34,026 nt of DNA. Source: Betaproteobacteria bacterium. GTDB taxonomy: Bacteria > Pseudomonadota > Gammaproteobacteria > Burkholderiales > SG8-41. The translations under genes were made by a program, and so were the position numbers. Positions 23,229 through 34,026 of this stretch are shown one piece after another. Position 1 is the first letter of the stretch, and every line of letters starts with the position of its first letter. The stretch is taken from NCBI GenBank assembly GCA_016199545.1, contig JACQGN010000158.1:1-34026 (forward strand), given 5' to 3'. The notes under the pieces are model-generated. The model made no database searches. It had not been told where the DNA came from and saw only the letters and a program-made list of their open reading frames with translations.

Positions 23229-24446
23229 ATGGATCAGGCGATGGCGGATACCCGGCTGCTGGCGCAGGCGCGCGGGTCGTTTCCCGCGCTCGAGCGCTGG
23301 ACCTATCTCGATCTTGGCGGGCGCGACGTGCTCTCGCGCGAGGTGCGCGCCGCGCTCGATGCGCACCTCGACGAACGCATGTTCAACGGCGCCGACAAGG
23401 ATCGCTTCTTCGCCATGACCGAGGAAGCGCGCGGGAAGTTTGCAAGACTCATCAACGCCGACGCCGACGAGATCGCGTATACGAAGAACATCTCTGACGG
23501 CCTCAACATGGTCGCGACCGGGCTCGAGTGGCGGCCGGGCGACAACGTCATACTTTGCGGCGAACTGGAACACCCCAACAACGTCTATCCGTGGCTCAAC
23601 CAGCGGGCGCGCGGGCTCGAAGCGCGGTTCGTGAAGCACCGCGACGGGCACATGCCGGTCGATGACATGATCGCGCGCATCGACGACGGGACCCGGGTCG
23701 TGACCTGCTCGACGGTGAGCTTTTCCCCGGGCTTTCGCACCGACATCGACCGGCTGGGGCGCGCCTGCCGCGAGCGCGGCGTGCTGTTCCTCGTCGATGC
23801 CGCGCAGTCCGCCGGCGTACTGCACACCGACGTGCGCGCAGCGAGCATCGACGCGCTCTCGGTATCGACCCAGAAGGGGCTGCTCGGTCTCTACGGCATG
23901 GGCTACCTCTACGTGCGGCGCGAGTGGGCGGAGCGGATGCGGCCCGCCTACCTCGCACGCTTCGGCGTCGATCTCGGCAGGGCCGACGTGCACGAGTCCG
24001 ACATCGGCGACCAGACCTACGACCTGATGCCGGCGGCGCGCCGCTTCGATCTCGGTAATTACAACTATATCGCCGTCGCAGCGGCGGATGCCGCAATGAA
24101 GTTCCTGCTGGAGCTCGACACGCGCAACATCGAGCCGTACGTGGTGCGCACCGCGCACGCGCTGGCGAACGGCCTGCACGATCTCGGTTTCCCGGTGTGC
24201 GGCGGCGCGCCCGGCCCGCATCTCGCGCACATCGTGTGCGTGGGCGTGTACGGCTCGGGCGGCGACAAGGGCGGCTCGGACGAACGCATGAACCGGTTCT
24301 ACCGGTTCCTGGTCGAGAACCGGGTCAAGCTCTCGATGCGGCGCGGCGTGCTGCGCCTCTCGCTCCACGTCTACAACAACCTGGACGACGTCGCGCGCGT
24401 GCTCGATCTCGCGAAGCAATTCATAGCCGCCGATAAACGCCGATAA
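23229..24446 (+). CDS. Class V aminotransferase-fold PLP enzyme
   Basis: A 405-residue fold-type I PLP enzyme of the cysteine desulfurase/isopenicillin-N-epimerase-like group. Asp190 in LVDAAQSAG pairs with the pyridine nitrogen, Gln193 follows, and Lys216 in SVSTQKGLLGLYGMG is the Schiff-base lysine. ELEHPNNVYPW holds the His that stacks on PLP. There is no flexible loop with the catalytic cysteine that desulfurases need (the region near the C-terminus reads RGVLRLSLHVYNN), so epimerase, lyase or aminotransferase activity is more likely. ATG at 23229 has GGAG five bases upstream; ATG at 23217 is also possible. Its C-terminal ADKRR and stop codon lie in the next repeat. Placed between HyuB and another PLP enzyme, it probably works on an amino acid in the same pathway. 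Confidence 0.9.
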   Translation: MDQAMADTRLLAQARGSFPALERWTYLDLGGRDVLSREVRAALDAHLDERMFNGADKDRFFAMTEEARGKFARLINADADEIAYTKNISDGLNMVATGLEWRPGDNVILCGELEHPNNVYPWLNQRARGLEARFVKHRDGHMPVDDMIARIDDGTRVVTCSTVSFSPGFRTDIDRLGRACRERGVLFLVDAAQSAGVLHTDVRAASIDALSVSTQKGLLGLYGMGYLYVRREWAERMRPAYLARFGVDLGRADVHESDIGDQTYDLMPAARRFDLGNYNYIAVAAADAAMKFLLELDTRNIEPYVVRTAHALANGLHDLGFPVCGGAPGPHLAHIVCVGVYGSGGDKGGSDERMNRFYRFLVENRVKLSMRRGVLRLSLHVYNNLDDVARVLDLAKQFIAADKRR

Positions 24447-24595
24447 ACGCCGATATGGCCTGCACCGCCAAAGCGCCAAGGACGATGCAGAAGAAGCGAT
24501 CATCAAGAGACGAACCAACGGGTACGTCGTTGCTGTTTGCGTTTTCTGGTTGATCCTCATCGGGTATATCTGCGTTCATCGGCGTTCATCGGCGG
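24427..24595. repeat. Long inverted repeat built of CGCCGATAAA units
   Basis: The left arm 24427-24456 (three units of CGCCGATAAA type) and right arm 24566-24595 (TTCATCGGCG units) are complementary at 27 of 30 positions and enclose 109 bases. The stop codon of the class V PLP enzyme (24444-24446) is within the left arm and the start of the next gene is 14 bases after the right arm. The centre includes CACCGCCAAAGCGCCAAGG, which resembles yet another common intergenic repeat. Confidence 0.75.
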
Positions 24596-25812: not shown

Positions 25813-26772
25813 TCACAGTTTCATTTCGCGGATGAGCTTGCTCCACTCGGATATCTCGGCGCGCACGAACGCACCGAATTCCTCGGGTGGATTGCCGACA
25901 GCGACGGCGCCCTCGACCGCGAGCCGTTTCACGGTGGCGGGGTCTTTCAGCACCTTGGCCATCGCTCCGTACACGTGGGCAACGATGGGTTCCGGCACCT
26001 TCGCCGGGGCGAACAACCCGAACCAGCCCGGCTTGTCGTACCCGGGCACGCCCGCCTCATCGATGGTCGGCATATCGGGCACGGCTGGCGATCGTTGCTT
26101 GGTGGTCACCGCAAGTCCGCGCATGCGGCCCGCTTTCATATGGGGGAGTCCGCCCAGAATGCCCACGAAAAGCACCTGCGTTTCGCCGCTGATGAGGCCG
26201 ATCGTGGCCGGACCGCCGCCTTTGTACGGTACATGCGTCAGGTTGATCTTGGCTTTGTACTTGAATAGCTCGGTGGTCATGAAGATGTTGCTGCCGCGCC
26301 CGGCGGAGGCGTAGTGAATTTCGCCGGGGCGCTTGCGCGCAAGAGCGAGCAGTTCCCTGACGCTCAACACCGGCAACGAGGGATGCACGACAAGGACGAG
26401 CGGCGCCTGCGCGAAATTCGTGATGGGTTTGAAGTCCTTCACCGCATCGTAGGCCAGATCCTTGTAGAGGCCCGGGGCGTAGGTGTAGCTCGCGGATGTC
26501 AAAAGCAGCGTGTAGCCGTCCGGCGCCGCTCGCGCGGCGATCGTACAGCCAAGCGTGCCGCCCCCACCGCCCCGATTGTCGATGATTATGCTGCCGCCGA
26601 GTGCCGCTTCGAGCTTGTCCTGCAAGCCGCGGGCCAGGATATCCGTGGCGCCTCCCGGCGGGAAGGGAATCAGGAGCCGGATCGGTTTTTCGGGATAGCC
26701 GGCGGCAAGGACCGACGGCGCGGACAGCGAGATCAGAGTGCAAAGCAGGGAAGTGCAGGCGATGCGGAACAT
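25813..26772 (-). CDS. Bug/TctC-type periplasmic solute-binding receptor
   Basis: A 319-residue receptor of the tripartite tricarboxylate transporter family, the second in the window. The signal peptide is about residues 1-24 (FRIACTSLLCTLISLSAPSV then LAAG). The mature start YPEKPIRLLIPFPPGGATDILAR and the later IIIDNRGGGGGTLG and INLTHVPYKGGGPATIGLISG are diagnostic. ATG at 26772 is chosen because GAGGAGGAG is directly upstream; the frame stays open to 26847. No membrane subunits adjoin. It is not a recent copy of the receptor at 17210: the two share family motifs but differ across most of their length. The ligand is probably a carboxylic acid. Confidence 0.94.
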   Translation of the reverse strand: MFRIACTSLLCTLISLSAPSVLAAGYPEKPIRLLIPFPPGGATDILARGLQDKLEAALGGSIIIDNRGGGGGTLGCTIAARAAPDGYTLLLTSASYTYAPGLYKDLAYDAVKDFKPITNFAQAPLVLVVHPSLPVLSVRELLALARKRPGEIHYASAGRGSNIFMTTELFKYKAKINLTHVPYKGGGPATIGLISGETQVLFVGILGGLPHMKAGRMRGLAVTTKQRSPAVPDMPTIDEAGVPGYDKPGWFGLFAPAKVPEPIVAHVYGAMAKVLKDPATVKRLAVEGAVAVGNPPEEFGAFVRAEISEWSKLIREMKL

Positions 26773-26845
26773 GTACTCCTCCTCGTTGTAATTGGTTTTG
26801 CCCGGCACCCTGACGCTGCCCTGGGGCATGGCGCCAGTCAGGTCC

Positions 26846-26874
26846 ATAATATGGACGCCGATTGCCAGAATAAA
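26846..26874 (-). promoter_or_regulatory. Possible promoter of the second Bug receptor
   Basis: On the minus strand TATTAT (26846-26851) is a five-of-six -10 match, 17 bases downstream of TTTATT (26869-26874), a weak -35. The -10 sits in the near-palindrome TCCATAATATGGA (26843-26855), which could be an operator. Confidence 0.3.
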
Positions 26875-27371: not shown

Positions 27372-28286
27372 CTAACGGGCGCGCAGCTTCGGGTCCAGCG
27401 TGTCCCGTAGGGCGTCGCCGAACAGGTTGAAAGCAAAAACCGCCAACGTGATGGCGAGCCCCGGAAAGACCGCAATCCACATCGCGCTCTCGGCGTACTC
27501 CTCCGCGCCGCCCTGCAGCATCAGACCCCACGCCGCATTGGGCTCCTGAACGCCGAGACCGAGGTATGACAGGGATGCCTCGGTCAGGATTGCCTGGCCA
27601 AGAAAGCTGGTCAGCATGATGAGGTAGGTCGCCATGCAATTCGGCACTATGTGCCGCAGAATAATGCGCAAGTTGCTGAAGCCCAGCGCGCGCGCGGCAT
27701 CGACGTAGGGCAACTCGCGAAGGGCCAGCGCACCGGCTCGCACCACGCGGGCGCATTCCGGGACAAACGGCAGGGCGATGGCGATGATCACCTTGTCCGT
27801 CCCGGTGCCGAAAACCGCGACCGCGACCAGCGCCAGGATAATCAGCGGAAACGCGAGAAACACGTCGATCATCCGCTGAATGACGAGATCGAACCAGCCG
27901 CCGATGTAGGCGCTGGCCACGCCCAGCACCAGCCCCAGTGTCGAGCCCAGAATGGCGCACGTAAAGCCGATGTACAGCGCCGTGCGTGCGCCCCAGATGA
28001 TGCGTGACAGAATATCGCGTCCGTACTGATCGGTGCCGAGCCAGTATTCGGCATTTGGTGCTGCGAGCATCTCATCGTAGTGCGGTACCACCGGATCGAA
28101 GGGCGAGAGCTGCGGCGCAAAGATCGCCATGAAGATCAAGAAAATAATGCCGAGCAGGCTCACGGTCCCGAGCGGCTGGTTGCGCACCCACGTGCCCAGC
28201 GCCTTGAAAAAAGGCCGTCTTGCAGCGGCAAGCTCGGCCTCTATGTCGGCACGTGGCAGCCGTACCGCGATCGCTTCTCCAGTCAC
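27372..28286 (-). CDS. Dpp/Opp-type ABC importer permease, C subunit (second copy)
   Basis: A 304-residue inner-membrane permease of the DppC/OppC type. It has an N-terminal cytoplasmic tail, a first membrane helix (GTVSLLGIIFLIFMAIFAP), the APNAEYWLGTDQYGRDILSRIIWGARTAL segment, about five more helices, and the EAA loop (ELPYVDAARALGFSNLRIILRHIVPN) that docks on the ATPases. It is a tandem copy of the gene at 28437: in the last 46 residues only three differ. The start is GTG at 28286 with GAGG upstream. Directly ahead of it are remnants of a D-type ATPase gene and of the 3' end of a B-type permease gene. Both C copies are intact, so they may have different substrate ranges or be a recent redundancy. 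Confidence 0.93.
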   Translation of the reverse strand: MTGEAIAVRLPRADIEAELAAARRPFFKALGTWVRNQPLGTVSLLGIIFLIFMAIFAPQLSPFDPVVPHYDEMLAAPNAEYWLGTDQYGRDILSRIIWGARTALYIGFTCAILGSTLGLVLGVASAYIGGWFDLVIQRMIDVFLAFPLIILALVAVAVFGTGTDKVIIAIALPFVPECARVVRAGALALRELPYVDAARALGFSNLRIILRHIVPNCMATYLIMLTSFLGQAILTEASLSYLGLGVQEPNAAWGLMLQGGAEEYAESAMWIAVFPGLAITLAVFAFNLFGDALRDTLDPKLRAR

Positions 28287-28295
28287 GGATCTCGC

Positions 28296-28410
28296 CTCAG
28301 TTATAGCGGATACGCGGATCTCCGCATCGCTCAGGGTGAGCAGGTCTCTCCCGGCAAAACGGATGCTGCCGCTCGCGATTCTACCCAGCGGATCAGGGCA
28401 CTGATCGTCT
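28296..28410 (-). pseudogene. Scar: fragment of a DppD-type ATPase gene joined to the end of a dppB-type gene
   Basis: On the minus strand, bases about 28410-28315 encode DPLGRIASGSIRFAGRDLLT followed by LSDAEIR. This matches the region after the Walker A motif of OppD/DppD ATPases (compare [22 protein letters not shown] in the gene at 33146). It has a frame change at its beginning (ISAL in another frame) and no Walker motifs or remainder. Immediately after, bases 28318-28295 read GATCCGCGTATCCGCTATAA then CTGA: in a second frame these encode DPRIRYN and stop, the exact C-terminus of the intact B permease. The two pieces meet at the shared GATCCGCG, suggesting a deletion or recombination at short homology. 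Confidence 0.6.
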
Positions 28411-28436
28411 GGAGTGCACGTCGACTCGACGCCGGG

Positions 28437-29363
28437 CTAACGGGCGCGCAGCTTCGGGTCCAGCGTGTCGCGTAGGGCGTCGCCTAACAGGTTGAAAGCG
28501 AAAACCGCTAGCGTGATGGCGAGCCCTGGAAATATCGCAATCCAAATCGCGCTCTCGGCGTATTCCTCCGCACCGCCCTGCAGCATCAGACCCCACGCCG
28601 CAGTGGGCTCCTGCACGCCAAGACCGAGGTATGACAGGGCTGCCTCGATCAGGATCGCCTGGCCGAGAAAGGTGGTGAGCATAATGAGGTAGACCGCCAT
28701 GCAGTTGGGCACCATATGCCGCATAATGATGCGCAGGTGGCCGTAGCCCAGCGCGCGCGCGGCATCGACGTAGGGCATCTCGCGAATCGCCAGCGCACCA
28801 GCTCGCACCACGCGGGCGCAGCGCGGAACAAACGGTAAGATGATCGCGATAATCACCTTGTCCGGCCCAGTGCCGAAAACCGCGACCGCGACCAGCGCCA
28901 TGATAATCAGCGGAAACGCGAGAAACACGTCCATCACCCGCTGGAAGATGAGGTCGAACCAACCGCTGAAATAGGCACTGGCCACGCCCAGCACCAGTCC
29001 CAGCGTCCCGCCCAGAATAGCGGCGGTAAAGCCGATGAACAGCGCCGTGCGCGCGCCCCAGATGATGCGCGACAGCACGTCGCGTCCGAACTGGTCGGTG
29101 CCGAGCCAGTATTCGGCATTCGGCGCCGTCATCATCGCATCGTAGTGGGCTTCCACCGGGTCGAAAGGCGCGATCTGCGGCGCGAACACCGCAACCAAGA
29201 TCAAAAAAATCACCATGATCCCGCTCACGGCCCCGAGCGGCTGGTCGCGCACCCACTTGCCCAGCGCCTTAAAGAATGGGCGCCGTGCCGCGACAAGTTC
29301 GGCCTCTGCATCGGCTCCAGGCAGCGCTCTGGGCAGCCCTACAGCAATCGCTTCTGTGTTCAC
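28437..29363 (-). CDS. Dpp/Opp-type ABC importer permease, C subunit (first copy)
   Basis: A 308-residue DppC/OppC-type permease with the same architecture as its neighbour: the first membrane helix AVSGIMVIFLILVAVFAP, then APNAEYWLGTDQFGRDVLSR, and the ATPase-contact EAA loop EMPYVDAARALGYGHLRIIMRH. I choose GTG at 29363 because AAGGAG stands seven bases upstream; the longer frame from 29426 is antisense-free but overlaps the B permease gene, which ends at 29374. It lies 10 bases after the B permease stop, so it is probably the original C gene of the operon and the copy at 27372 the derived one. It forms the membrane channel with the B subunit. Confidence 0.94.
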   Translation of the reverse strand: MNTEAIAVGLPRALPGADAEAELVAARRPFFKALGKWVRDQPLGAVSGIMVIFLILVAVFAPQIAPFDPVEAHYDAMMTAPNAEYWLGTDQFGRDVLSRIIWGARTALFIGFTAAILGGTLGLVLGVASAYFSGWFDLIFQRVMDVFLAFPLIIMALVAVAVFGTGPDKVIIAIILPFVPRCARVVRAGALAIREMPYVDAARALGYGHLRIIMRHMVPNCMAVYLIMLTTFLGQAILIEAALSYLGLGVQEPTAAWGLMLQGGAEEYAESAIWIAIFPGLAITLAVFAFNLLGDALRDTLDPKLRAR

Positions 29364-29373
29364 GGAACTCTCC

Positions 29374-30345
29374 TTAGTTATAGCGGATACGCGGATCCAG
29401 CCACGCGTAGCCGATGTCCACCGCAAAATTTACCATCACGAATATCATCACCACCAGCATCACCAGGGACTGGGTCATAGTGTAATCGTTGTTGAGCACC
29501 GACTCGATAAACAGCTTGCCGATCCCGTTGAGGTTGAACACCTGCTCGGTCACTACCAGTCCTCCCATCAGGAACGCGAACTCCAGGCCGATGATGGTCA
29601 CCACCGGCAGCATCGCATTCTTGAGGGCGTGCTTGCGGATGATGACCTTCTCCCACAGGCCTTTGGCGCGCGCGGTGCGCACGTAGTCCTCGCGCAGCAC
29701 CTCGAGCAGCGCCGAGCGCGTCATCCGCGTGACCACCGCCGAGTAACGGTAGCCGGTGGCCACCGTCGGCCAGATCAGCATGGAAAGATTGTAGACAGGG
29801 TCTTCCCAGATCGGTATGTAGGTAATGGGCGGCATCCACGGCGTCCCCAGAAAATGCTGCGTGCTCACGAGCAATCCGATGATGATCATGAGTCCGAGCC
29901 AGAACGCCGGCGTAGCGATGCCCGCGATGCTGAAGCCGCGCACCATGTAGTCGAGCCAGGTATTTTGCCTGACTGCGGAAATTATGCCGAGGGGGATGGC
30001 GATGATGACCCCAATGATCGTGGACATGATAGCTACCTGCAGCGAAAGCTCGAAGCGCAGCGCGACTTCCGTGAGAACGGGCTGGCCGGTCCACATGGAA
30101 GTGCCAAAGTCGAAACGCATGAGGCCCCATACGAAACTGACGAACTGTGTCAGCATCGGCTTGTTGGTTCCCATCTCCCCACGGCAGGTGTCGACCGCGG
30201 CCTTATCGAAATAGCCACCGTCTCCCGCCATGCGGATCTCGCAGATATCGCCGGGGATGAGCCGCAGCATTATAAACACGAGCGCCGCCGCTCCGAACAG
30301 GGTCGGAATCACCAGCAGCAGGCGCTTAAATATATATTTGCGCAT
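29374..30345 (-). CDS. Dpp/Opp-type ABC importer permease, B subunit
   Basis: A 323-residue permease. The N-terminal MRKYIFKRLLLVIPTLFGAA helix and the RLIPGD motif are the DppB/OppB hallmarks. A periplasmic segment (residues about 34-95) precedes five further helices. The EAA loop reads REDYVRTARAKGLWEKVIIR, and the protein ends AWLDPRIRYN. No strong ribosome site precedes the ATG; a stem-loop stands between it and the binding-protein gene and may lower its expression relative to that gene. It lies directly upstream of the first C permease. Substrate (peptide, nickel, glutathione, opine, sugar) cannot be read from the permease. Confidence 0.95.
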   Translation of the reverse strand: MRKYIFKRLLLVIPTLFGAAALVFIMLRLIPGDICEIRMAGDGGYFDKAAVDTCRGEMGTNKPMLTQFVSFVWGLMRFDFGTSMWTGQPVLTEVALRFELSLQVAIMSTIIGVIIAIPLGIISAVRQNTWLDYMVRGFSIAGIATPAFWLGLMIIIGLLVSTQHFLGTPWMPPITYIPIWEDPVYNLSMLIWPTVATGYRYSAVVTRMTRSALLEVLREDYVRTARAKGLWEKVIIRKHALKNAMLPVVTIIGLEFAFLMGGLVVTEQVFNLNGIGKLFIESVLNNDYTMTQSLVMLVVMIFVMVNFAVDIGYAWLDPRIRYN

Positions 30346-30415: not shown

Positions 30416-32035
30416 TTACTTGTCCAGCCATACGTTATCGAGGTGCTGGTTCATGTGGTGGCTCGGGCTGATTTTCCATCCCTTTACATACGAGCGGTGG
30501 GGAACGATACGGTGCCACCACAGTATCGAGAACTGGTTGGCATGCGTGTCCAGCGTGAGCTTCGTAATATCGAGCATCAGCTTGCGCTGTTCCTTGACAT
30601 CGGTCAAGCGGATCATCTTGTCGTAGGCCGCATCGACATCGCGGTCAATGAATTGTCCGTACTGGATGCTGGAGCGGTCGGCCGAAAGGTACTTGGTGAC
30701 GTCCACCAACGGGTTGACTACGTAATTACAGGAGGCGTCGGTGGAGACGTCAAATTCCTTGGTCTGGCGCAGTATGTTCAAGTACGGTCCCGTCGGATGA
30801 GTCTCCTGCTTGAAATTGATCCCGACCTGTTTCCACTGGTCGACGAGCCAGGTGGCCACGATCTTGTAGGGCTGATCGACGCCGCGCACGAGGAACTTGT
30901 ACTCCTTCGACAAGTCAGCCCCCGACTCCTTGAGCAGCCTGCGCGCCTCTGCGCGCGATTTCTTGATGTCGGGCCACCAGCCTGCGATCTGCTGCATCTC
31001 CTCATTGGTCGGGGAGAGCGCATGGCCGGGGTAGGTTATGCCGCCCACAGTCTTGACAAGCGCGATCTTGGATAGATACTTGGAACCGCCCCAGCGATCC
31101 ACCGCCAGCGTGAGCGCGCGGCGCACGCGCACGTCGTCGAAGGGCTTACGCTTGTGATTCGGCACGAAGGAGATCCCGCAGTTCCACACGCTCTCCTGCA
31201 CGGTGATTTCCTTGCCGAGCGCTTTGACCAGGTCATCGCGCGCCGCCGGCGGGAAACCGCGGAACTCGATGGCGGCGCGGTCGCCGCGGATCGCCTGCAC
31301 CCGCAGCGACTCTTTCTTGGCGAAGATCGCCTTGAAGCCGTCGAGATAAGGCAGGCCCTTGTGGTGGTAGTCGGGGTTGCGCTCGCCGCGCATGAACGCG
31401 CCCGCCTCGCGTTCCTTGAAGATAAAGGGCCCGCTGCCGTTGATGTTCTTCTCGTACCAGTGCATGTCCTTGTCCAGCACGCTCTTCTGGTAGATCCAGT
31501 TAAAGGGTGAGGCGAGCGCCGGGATGAAGGCGTTGCTCGCGAACTTGAGCTTGAATACCACCGTGCTGTCGTCCGGGGCGTTCACGCTCTCGACCATGCT
31601 ATACATCTGACGGCGCTGGCTCCTCACGCCTTCCGGGGGCCAAATGATTTTCTTGTACGTGGCCACTACGTCCTGCGCCGTCAACTTTTCGCCGGTGTGG
31701 AATTTCACGTCGCCGCGGATCTTGAACGTGTAAGTAGTGTTGTCGTCAGTCGGCGCCGGCACCTTGCCCACGCACACGTCGCACACAATGTCCGTGAGCG
31801 AGGAAGGATTATCCGGATTTATCCGGATCAACAAGCTGTAAAAGGGGCCCACTGGATGGATCAACGCGAAGGTGCCCTCACGATGCCCATCGTAGCTGGG
31901 CGGCTCATCGGGAACGACAAACTCAAGGATGCCGCCACGCTTCGGAGTCTGTGCCCCTGCCGAGCCGGCTGCGCTGATGCCGAACGCGATGGCTGCCAGC
32001 GCGGTGCATACTGCTTTTCTGCGGATGCTTTTCAT
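30416..32035 (-). CDS. ABC importer periplasmic substrate-binding protein (SBP family 5)
   Basis: A 539-residue DppA/OppA-type receptor. The signal peptide covers residues 1-29 (KSIRRKAVCTALAAIAFGI then SAAGSAGAQT). The mature part contains the family-5 opening GGILEFVVPDEPPSYDGHRE, TYTFKIRGDVKFHTGEKLTAQDV, and VRRALTLAVDRWGG. It delivers its ligand to the B/C permease. ATG at 32035 is chosen because AGGAGG lies seven bases upstream; the frame continues to 32053. Unusually for the order D-F-A-B-C, the receptor gene is third, after both ATPases. One cysteine pair (CDVCVG near residue 90) is present in the mature protein and could form a disulfide. Confidence 0.94.
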   Translation of the reverse strand: MKSIRRKAVCTALAAIAFGISAAGSAGAQTPKRGGILEFVVPDEPPSYDGHREGTFALIHPVGPFYSLLIRINPDNPSSLTDIVCDVCVGKVPAPTDDNTTYTFKIRGDVKFHTGEKLTAQDVVATYKKIIWPPEGVRSQRRQMYSMVESVNAPDDSTVVFKLKFASNAFIPALASPFNWIYQKSVLDKDMHWYEKNINGSGPFIFKEREAGAFMRGERNPDYHHKGLPYLDGFKAIFAKKESLRVQAIRGDRAAIEFRGFPPAARDDLVKALGKEITVQESVWNCGISFVPNHKRKPFDDVRVRRALTLAVDRWGGSKYLSKIALVKTVGGITYPGHALSPTNEEMQQIAGWWPDIKKSRAEARRLLKESGADLSKEYKFLVRGVDQPYKIVATWLVDQWKQVGINFKQETHPTGPYLNILRQTKEFDVSTDASCNYVVNPLVDVTKYLSADRSSIQYGQFIDRDVDAAYDKMIRLTDVKEQRKLMLDITKLTLDTHANQFSILWWHRIVPHRSYVKGWKISPSHHMNQHLDNVWLDK

Positions 32036-32117
32036 AACTTCCTCCTCGCTCAAAAAATCATCTACTCCCCGACGATCGTCACGCTCCCTTGAATTTCACG
32101 GCAACTCGAAACATTGG

Positions 32118-33149
32118 CTACACGCGCGGGCAGGCCACCCAATGCCCTGGCTTCAGTTGCCGCAACTGCGGTACTTCCTGCCGGCAGCTATCGACCGCAA
32201 GCGGGCAGCGCGGATGAAACACGCAGCCGCCAGGCGGATTGATCGGACTCGGTATTTCGCCCTTCATGACGTTGCGGGCACGCAGTTTCTCGATATCCGG
32301 ATCCGGGATCGGCACGGCCTCGAGCAGCGCCCGGGTGTAGGGATGCAGCGGATTGGTGAACAGCTCGTCGGAATCGGCGAGTTCCACCAGCCGCCCGAGG
32401 TACATCACGGCGACCCGGTGGCACAAATGGCGCACCACGCTCAAATCATGGGCGATAAACAGATACGAAAGGTTGAACTGCTCGCGCAGGTCCTCCAGCA
32501 GATTGATCACCTGGGCCTGGATCGAAACGTCCAGAGCGGACACCGCCTCGTCGCAAATGATGAAATGTGGGTTGAGCGACAGTGCACGCGCGATGCCCAC
32601 CCGCTGGCGCTGTCCACCGCTCATTTCGTGCGGATAGCGGTCCATGAACTTCGGATTGAGCCCGCATACCGAAAGCAGCTCCGCCACGCGCTGGTCACGT
32701 TCTTTCCGTTTCGGGTAGATGCCATGGACCTTCATCGGTTCCCCGATAATGGAGCCCACCTTCATCCGCGGATTGAGCGAACTGAAGGGGTCCTGGAAAA
32801 TGACCTGCATCCGTTCGCGTTTTTCGTTTAAAGCGTCGCGGTCGAGATTGCAGAGGTTCTGGCCCTCGAAAATGATCTCGCCCGACGTCGGCTTTTCGAG
32901 ACGCAGGATGCAGCGCCCGGTGGTGGTCTTTCCGCAGCCGGATTCTCCGACCAACCCCAAGGCTTCGCCGCGCGCGATGGTGAAGCTCACGTCATCGACC
33001 GCCTTGATCCGTGCCGCCTTGTTGAGAGAGAAAATACCGCCCGCGACCGTAAAGTGCATTTTCAAATTCCGCACCTCGAGCAACGGGGGACGGGCCTGCG
33101 CCGTCCGGGGTGTATCGGGACGCAACGTTGCGCCTGCAACCGCGCTCAT
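32118..33149 (-). CDS. Dpp/Opp-type ABC importer ATPase, F subunit
   Basis: A 343-residue ATPase. Walker [10 protein letters not shown] is at residues 68-76, the Q-loop glutamine in [13 protein letters not shown] at 119, the signature [15 protein letters not shown] at 176-190, Walker [13 protein letters not shown] with Asp200 and Glu201, and the H-loop His234 in [11 protein letters not shown]. The C-terminal oligopeptide/dipeptide extension carries four cysteines ([16 protein letters not shown] and ACPRV), typical of the family. Its ATG overlaps the TGA of the D subunit (ATGA), so the two ATPases are made together. It energises import with the D subunit. Confidence 0.96.
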
Positions 33150-34026
33150 GAAGCCTCCTTCAGCAGACGCTCAAGCCGGGCCTTCTCAAAGCACGCCGAA
33201 GTGTGGTCACTCGCCACCGCTTCGAGCGGCGGCGTCCCCCGCACGCAACGCTCCACGGCGAAACTGCAGCGCGGCCGATAGGCGCAACCTTCGATTTCCC
33301 GGGTAAGGTCGGGTGGCTGACCGTCGATCGGGATCAAACGCTCGCCGCGCGGCCGGTCCATGCGCGGGATACTGTGCAAAAGTCCCAGCGTGTAGGGATG
33401 AACCGGCCGGTGATAAATGTCCGAGGCAACCCCGCTTTCCACAATCTTGCCTGCGTACATGACGTTGACGCGGTCGGCGTAACGGGCCACCACCCCGAGG
33501 TTGTGCGTGATGATGACGAGCGCGACCCCGAAGCGTTTCGTGAGGTCTCTCATCAACTCCAGGATTTGCGCCTGGATGGTCACATCCAGCGCGGTGGTCG
33601 GTTCATCGGCAATAATGAGCTTCGGCTGGCACGACAGCGCGAGTGCAATCATCACGCGCTGGCGCATGCCGCCACTCAGGTGATGGGGGTACTGTTGCAG
33701 TCGCCGCGCGGCCTCGGAGATTCCCACCATGTCGAGTAGTTCAGTCGCGCGAGCCTGCGCCTTGTCGGGGCTGAGATTAAGGTGCAGTTCCATGCCTTCG
33801 CAAAGCTGCTGGCCGATGGTCAGCACCGGATTGAGCGATGTCATCGGGTCTTGAAACACGAAGCCGATGCGCCCGCCGCGCACCTGGCGGATGTCGGCCT
33901 CGGTCATTTTGAGCAGGTCGCGCGAGCCGTAGCCGTCATGGAAGATGGCCTGACCGCCCTCGATCTTTGCCGGGGGATCGGGGAGCAGGCGAAGCATGGA
34001 CATCATGGTCACGCTCTTGCCGCAGC
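33146..34026 (-). CDS. Dpp/Opp-type ABC importer ATPase, D subunit, 5' truncated by the window end
   Basis: The frame runs off the right end of the window inside the Walker A motif: the last visible codons give C-G-K-S-V-T. What remains (about 293 codons) includes [12 protein letters not shown] (Q-loop), [15 protein letters not shown] (signature), [12 protein letters not shown] (Walker B), [14 protein letters not shown] (H-loop) and the C-terminal peptide-transporter extension with [16 protein letters not shown]. The missing part should be about 45 residues. The GTG at 34012 is internal and not the start. Residues after Walker A ([26 protein letters not shown]) are the region copied in the scar at 28296-28410. 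Confidence 0.95.

Follow-up and report, generated by a model that had tools for sequence, protein, structure and literature searches.

The window, the whole stretch of DNA analysed here, is an entire contig (C97) of 34,026 bases from an assembly of 349 contigs that is estimated to be 78.68% complete and 4.75% contaminated. Its minus strand encodes an operon in the order D-F-A-B-C1-spacer-C2 (Table 1), which combines an SBP_bac_5 binding protein, a B-type permease and two oligo_HPY ATPases and thus belongs among the peptide/nickel/opine ABC importers. It shares the five subunit types A, B, C, D and F with these importers but, unlike the usual members, has two C genes, giving D-F-A-B-C-C. Both C proteins score above the Pfam gathering scores for BPD_transp_1 and OppC_N. 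Among the matches listed, no operon protein reached an NCBIfam cut-off; for example, C1 and C2 scored 213.7 and 208.5 bits against the DppC equivalog (cut-off 483 bits) and 257 and 257.4 bits against GsiD, the glutathione permease (cut-off 484 bits), so the dpp name expresses mere resemblance.

Table 1 Operon genes, gene remnants and junction sequences in the window
Feature	Position	Strand	Basis or remark
C2, second C-type permease gene	27372..28286	-	BPD_transp_1 + OppC_N (Pfam)
C2 leader, homologous to the B-C1 intergenic leader	28287..28296	-	sequence match
B' tail, last seven B codons (DPRIRYN) and stop, 24 bp	28297..28320	-	match to intact B
8-bp microhomology GATCCGCG, common to D and B sequences at the junction	28313..28320	-	junction alignment
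D' fragment, about 28 codons from within the 5' part of a D-type ATPase gene	28313..28397	-	pairwise matches
39 nt from C1 stop to D' fragment	28398..28436	-	first 6 nt (CCCGGC) also in C2 3' flank
C1, C-type permease gene adjoining B	28437..29363	-	BPD_transp_1 + OppC_N (Pfam)
B-type permease gene, intact	29374..30345	-	BPD_transp_1 (Pfam)
A, family 5 solute-binding protein	30416..32053	-	SBP_bac_5 (Pfam)
F-type ATPase gene	32118..33149	-	ABC_tran + oligo_HPY (Pfam)
D-type ATPase gene, 5' end truncated at contig end	33146..34024	-	ABC_tran + oligo_HPY (Pfam)

The two C genes are intact and in tandem, as originally predicted, and share 86% DNA identity and 83% protein identity over 304 aligned residues. 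Their 3' ends are 90% identical over the final 300 nt, including 6 nt beyond the stop codon, with the string GTTAGCCCGGC common to both, and the protein tails differ at three residues (I/M, I/V and L/F), the number foreseen. The DNA likeness that had been proposed to reach past the stop and upstream does so on both sides: ahead of the genes it spans the leader and enters the 3' end of B (28255-28320 versus 29332-29397, 85% over 66 nt). C1 starts with GTG, and its mechanical open reading frame begins at 29426. Both genes lie in the same reading frame, separated by 50 open codons from the C1 stop to the C2 start (28287-28436) that hold no in-frame ATG, GTG or TTG; the C2 open frame, counted with these upstream codons, is 354 aa long. 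Hypothetical read-through of the C1 stop would yield a fused C1-C2 protein.

Remnants of D and B genes between the C copies

The spacer holds remnants of more than one operon gene in operon order, D' followed by B' and then C2. The 85 nt of D' match the start of a D gene on another contig of the same assembly, C112, at 78 positions (92%, E 6.3e-29; score 135, best of 1000 mononucleotide shuffles 26). At the protein level, D' matches the C112 D gene product (E 3.0e-11) and that of the relative L013 (79% over 29 aa, E 9e-11). The 44-aa D' translation has no Pfam or NCBIfam match, so its D-type identity rests on pairwise matches. A D-type ATPase piece had been proposed before C2 at 28296-28410, a region that does have these significant matches to D ATPases; the piece is real and is shorter than proposed (28313-28397).

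The proposed fusion of a B tail to this piece was likewise confirmed, as 28287-28320 agrees with the intact B end and the C1 leader at 31 of its 34 nt (score 53; shuffle maximum 25, n = 1000). The B' tail stops with TGA and intact B with TAA. Window C2 thereby retains what is usual at a B-C junction, with a B tail, a leader and the N-terminus in place. Beyond providing the C2 leader, the D' and B' fragments are probably inert. At the D'/B' junction the two sequences overlap by exactly 8 bp, GATCCGCG; overlaps of at least 8 bp occur in 0.025% of the 295,334 ways to join C112 D to window B, which here substitute for the true parents, now gone. For the 39 nt that separate D' from the C1 stop, a source was sought in C112 and the C2 3' flank, and nothing scored above shuffles.

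Gene order in relatives and the source of D'

Matches to the operon above a strict threshold were found in 4 of 74 genomes of the family, 3 of 399 of the order, 1 of 369 of the class (the window's own genome) and 1 of 4 of the family of genome G210. These samples overlap; those of the family, order and class include the window's own genome, and those of the order and class were drawn from larger groups, with only the best five or six candidates per genome scored in these two. The operon is thus rare and patchy among relatives. A D-F-A-B-C order with a single C of this type was present in the stretches read from G059, G011 and G337, and D-F-A-B-C1-C2 in two genomes besides the window's, G073 and G210. 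The G073 operon is on the contig of locus L013 (CADECM010000006.1), from a betaproteobacterial MAG. Across 13 loci compared, a tandem C pair of this type was present only in L013, and L014 to L020 have A-B-C with one C. No complete double operon was found among the matches from the 74 family, 399 order, 369 class and 4 G210-family genomes and the 13 loci, which are partial, overlapping samples. In G059, a second, diverged D-F pair directly follows C (D-F-A-B-C-D2-F2; L034:5577-7598), with D2 and F2 57% and 58% identical to window D and F.

The C1-C2 spacers of the three genomes differ. That of G210 (L062:2436-2780) is 345 nt long and includes 68 nt from the end of B (score 58; shuffle maximum 27, n = 1000). 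A transposase-like remnant of 124 nt splits this B piece at a TA and reads, on the other strand, like what we take to be the terminal part of an IS630-type transposase. Over its first 139 nt, the spacer matches nothing elsewhere in the G210 operon. The G073 spacer has no convincing remnant: the best of five leader tests gave p 0.0255, and of four operon-wide comparisons three fell below the shuffle mean and the fourth, to C112, was reached by 1 of 60 shuffles and lay outside D. The G073 and G210 spacers yielded no D piece, and D' was seen only in the window genome. A different spacer in relatives with two C genes had been named as evidence against the proposed rearrangement; the spacers are indeed different, yet that of G210 is itself a B remnant and thus supports it.

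The source of D' was approached by counting mismatches over 78 aligned bases against the D genes of C112, G210, G073, G059, G011 and G337, which gave 7, 12, 16, 21, 28 and 30, respectively. C112 D itself has 13 mismatches to G210 D and 17 to G073 D, and D' is nearer to it than either. To window D, in agreement with the earlier remark that the fragment is unlike the operon's own D, the match is barely above shuffles (score 31; maximum 29, n = 200). The link from D' to the window operon therefore runs via another contig. Derivation of D' from a second D located after C, as D2 in G059, was considered and rejected (score 22, below the shuffle maximum of 29, n = 200).

Contig C112 (4,477 bases) ends inside its own D gene (L033:4151-4477), which is of the type heading this operon in relatives; over 348 nt, its start shares 81.6% identity with the start of G073 D. 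In both C112 and G073, a gene on the opposite strand, presumably TctC-like, lies upstream of D. Over alignment columns 49-110, C112 D matches 54 of 58 residues of G073 D, 46 of G059 D and 43 of G011 D, and window D matches C112 D at 33 of 58. At the DNA level, C112 D and window D are 70-72% identical over the first 214 nt. With about 58% of residues and 70-72% of bases shared between the two D starts, C112 is not a mere overlap of the window contig end. It may be the true head of the window operon, the head of a second operon or a contig from another strain. A bin search found one A and one B of this subfamily (bin 78.68% complete).

It is window D that diverges in its 5' part (33146-34026), both from the D genes of relatives and from C112 D, and it has a 4-residue insertion, which may reflect divergence, a mosaic gene or an assembly artefact. 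Compared with the six other operon D genes aligned (gaps omitted), identity is 68-77% over its first 107 or so bases and 71-85% over the following 107; the contrast in DNA is milder than that in protein, and a reading of the first part as anomalous was dropped. The blastn alignment of window D to G059 extends to within 25 bases of the contig end.

Origin and possible role of the second C gene

In phylogenetic trees, the three C2 genes (window, G073 and G210) cluster with bootstrap supports of 88 (DNA) and 99 (protein), and the C1 and C2 genes jointly split from the single-C genes with supports of 100 (DNA) and 99 (protein). Placement of the C2 group among the C1 genes has supports of only 38-76. 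Within single genomes, the synonymous divergence (dS) that separates C1 from C2 amounts to 0.34 (window), 0.69 (G073) and 0.74 (G210). Between genomes, window C1 differs from C1 of G073 and G210 by 0.40 and 0.59, and window C2 from its counterparts by 0.50 and 0.57, respectively. The low dS within the window suggests that its copies were homogenised by gene conversion or that part of the duplication is younger than the lineage split.

Tandem duplication with later loss of part of the copied segment is a well-known process, and the window resembles it in having a duplicate segment, a lost middle and a short-homology junction, with no difference in kind. Most likely, C2 derives from a duplicated segment with at least B and C, and here also D, the middle of which was lost at different places in each lineage. 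In an ancestor with D-F-A-B-C, a segment from inside D at least to C would have been duplicated in tandem. The second D', F', A' and B', being redundant, would have been deleted at places that differ across lineages, and the second C would have been retained and then diverged. In the window genome, a deletion at the 8-bp common sequence would have brought D' up against the final 24 bp of B', leaving a D'/B' scar immediately before a C2 that has its own start and leader and is selectively maintained. We infer that the duplication was tandem rather than dispersed and that events took this order. Taken as a whole, from a tandem duplication spanning D' to C, through lineage-specific loss, to a C2 kept as an alternative C subunit, this history is probable. 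The original prediction that a wider copy of D, B and C had lost its middle at short homology is supported by the D-F-A-B-C order of relatives, the B end in G210 and the 8-bp junction. Given the B remnant in G210 and the grouping of the C2 genes, the simplest reading is that a segment with B and C was duplicated before the three lineages parted. It is also possible that a ready-made C1-C2 pair was transferred between lineages, which would leave the history of the segment unchanged.

The main weakness of a single-event account is that window C1 and C2 are too alike for an old duplication, as are D' and C112 D. Gene conversion before the loss, or a younger second round of duplication, would each explain this likeness. 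Two separate events are an unlikely alternative explanation, in which an old duplication of C alone, or of the B end and C, was followed, later and in this lineage, by the addition of D' through an unrelated short insertion or through gene conversion from a D gene. Such a sequence would fit three observations: D' was seen in the window genome only, its nearest match is a D gene within the same assembly, and no D piece turned up in the G073 and G210 spacers. It fits less well with the join of D and B at an exact 8-bp overlap, which is expected from one deletion within a D'..B' segment, or with the position of D': D is the operon's first gene, so a tandem operon copy would put D' just after C1.

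The extra C might instead have come from a second, diverged operon, paralogous or transferred, with C112 D perhaps at its head. The resemblance of D' to C112 D and not to window D would suit this, as would the patchy distribution of the operon (4/74 family and 3/399 order genomes above the strict threshold), and the remainder of such an operon could be absent from a 78.68% complete assembly. A diverged paralogous source had been suggested originally and is not favoured here. It is improbable because the trees set C1 and C2 together apart from the single-C genes in relatives, because G210 and G073 have a D of the D' type at the head of this operon, and because the bin (78.68% complete) yielded just one A and one B of the subfamily. 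A misjoin creating the spacer is conceivable in an assembly with this many contigs, incompleteness and contamination (349, 78.68% complete and 4.75%, respectively), but it is very improbable with the tandem C pair present in two further genomes, one of them with a B remnant in its spacer, and with D' identical to no other site found in the bin (best 92%).

Values of dN/dS are 0.17-0.19 among C2 genes and 0.16-0.27 among C1 genes; those among C2 genes are below 1, showing that C2 is maintained by purifying selection. C2 would most likely serve as an alternative partner of the single B, using the same A, D and F, so that B-C1 or B-C2 importers would form. At four positions, the three C2 genes share residues that none of the ten other aligned C genes has. 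One of these is Glu177, present in 3/3 C2 genes where 10/10 other C genes have Arg, a charge reversal located 19 residues before the DAA of a putative ATPase-coupling loop, which we take to be of the EAA type. Specialisation of a C2 with this charge reversal, altering the substrate or partner of the importer and possibly allowing a C1-C2 pair without B, is an improbable prospect.

The window offers a readable example of how an ABC importer may gain a second membrane subunit, by duplicating a long operon segment, deleting the redundant genes at short homology and keeping one. As one lineage has kept a scar and another a longer B remnant that differs from it, the history can be read, and three lineages with differently eroded spacers allow the order of events to be tested. 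This is ordinary genome evolution, unusually well recorded, and leaves the general view of operon evolution unchanged. In Pseudomonas aeruginosa, five binding proteins are reported to serve one DppBCDF (PMC4206461). The P. aeruginosa system resembles the window operon in having one importer core with a multiplied component, and differs in that the binding protein is multiplied there and the C permease here. A literature search at the level of titles returned no account of tandem C permeases separated by a D/B scar.

Outside the operon, the gene at 25813-26847 is 37-44% identical to several genes neighbouring the operon in G073 and G011. An NCBIfam search with this gene gave no match, and we assume it to be TctC-like. 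A 30-nt inverted repeat (24427-24456 and 24566-24595) has arms that are 90% complementary, the first of which overlaps the end of an aminotransferase-like gene.
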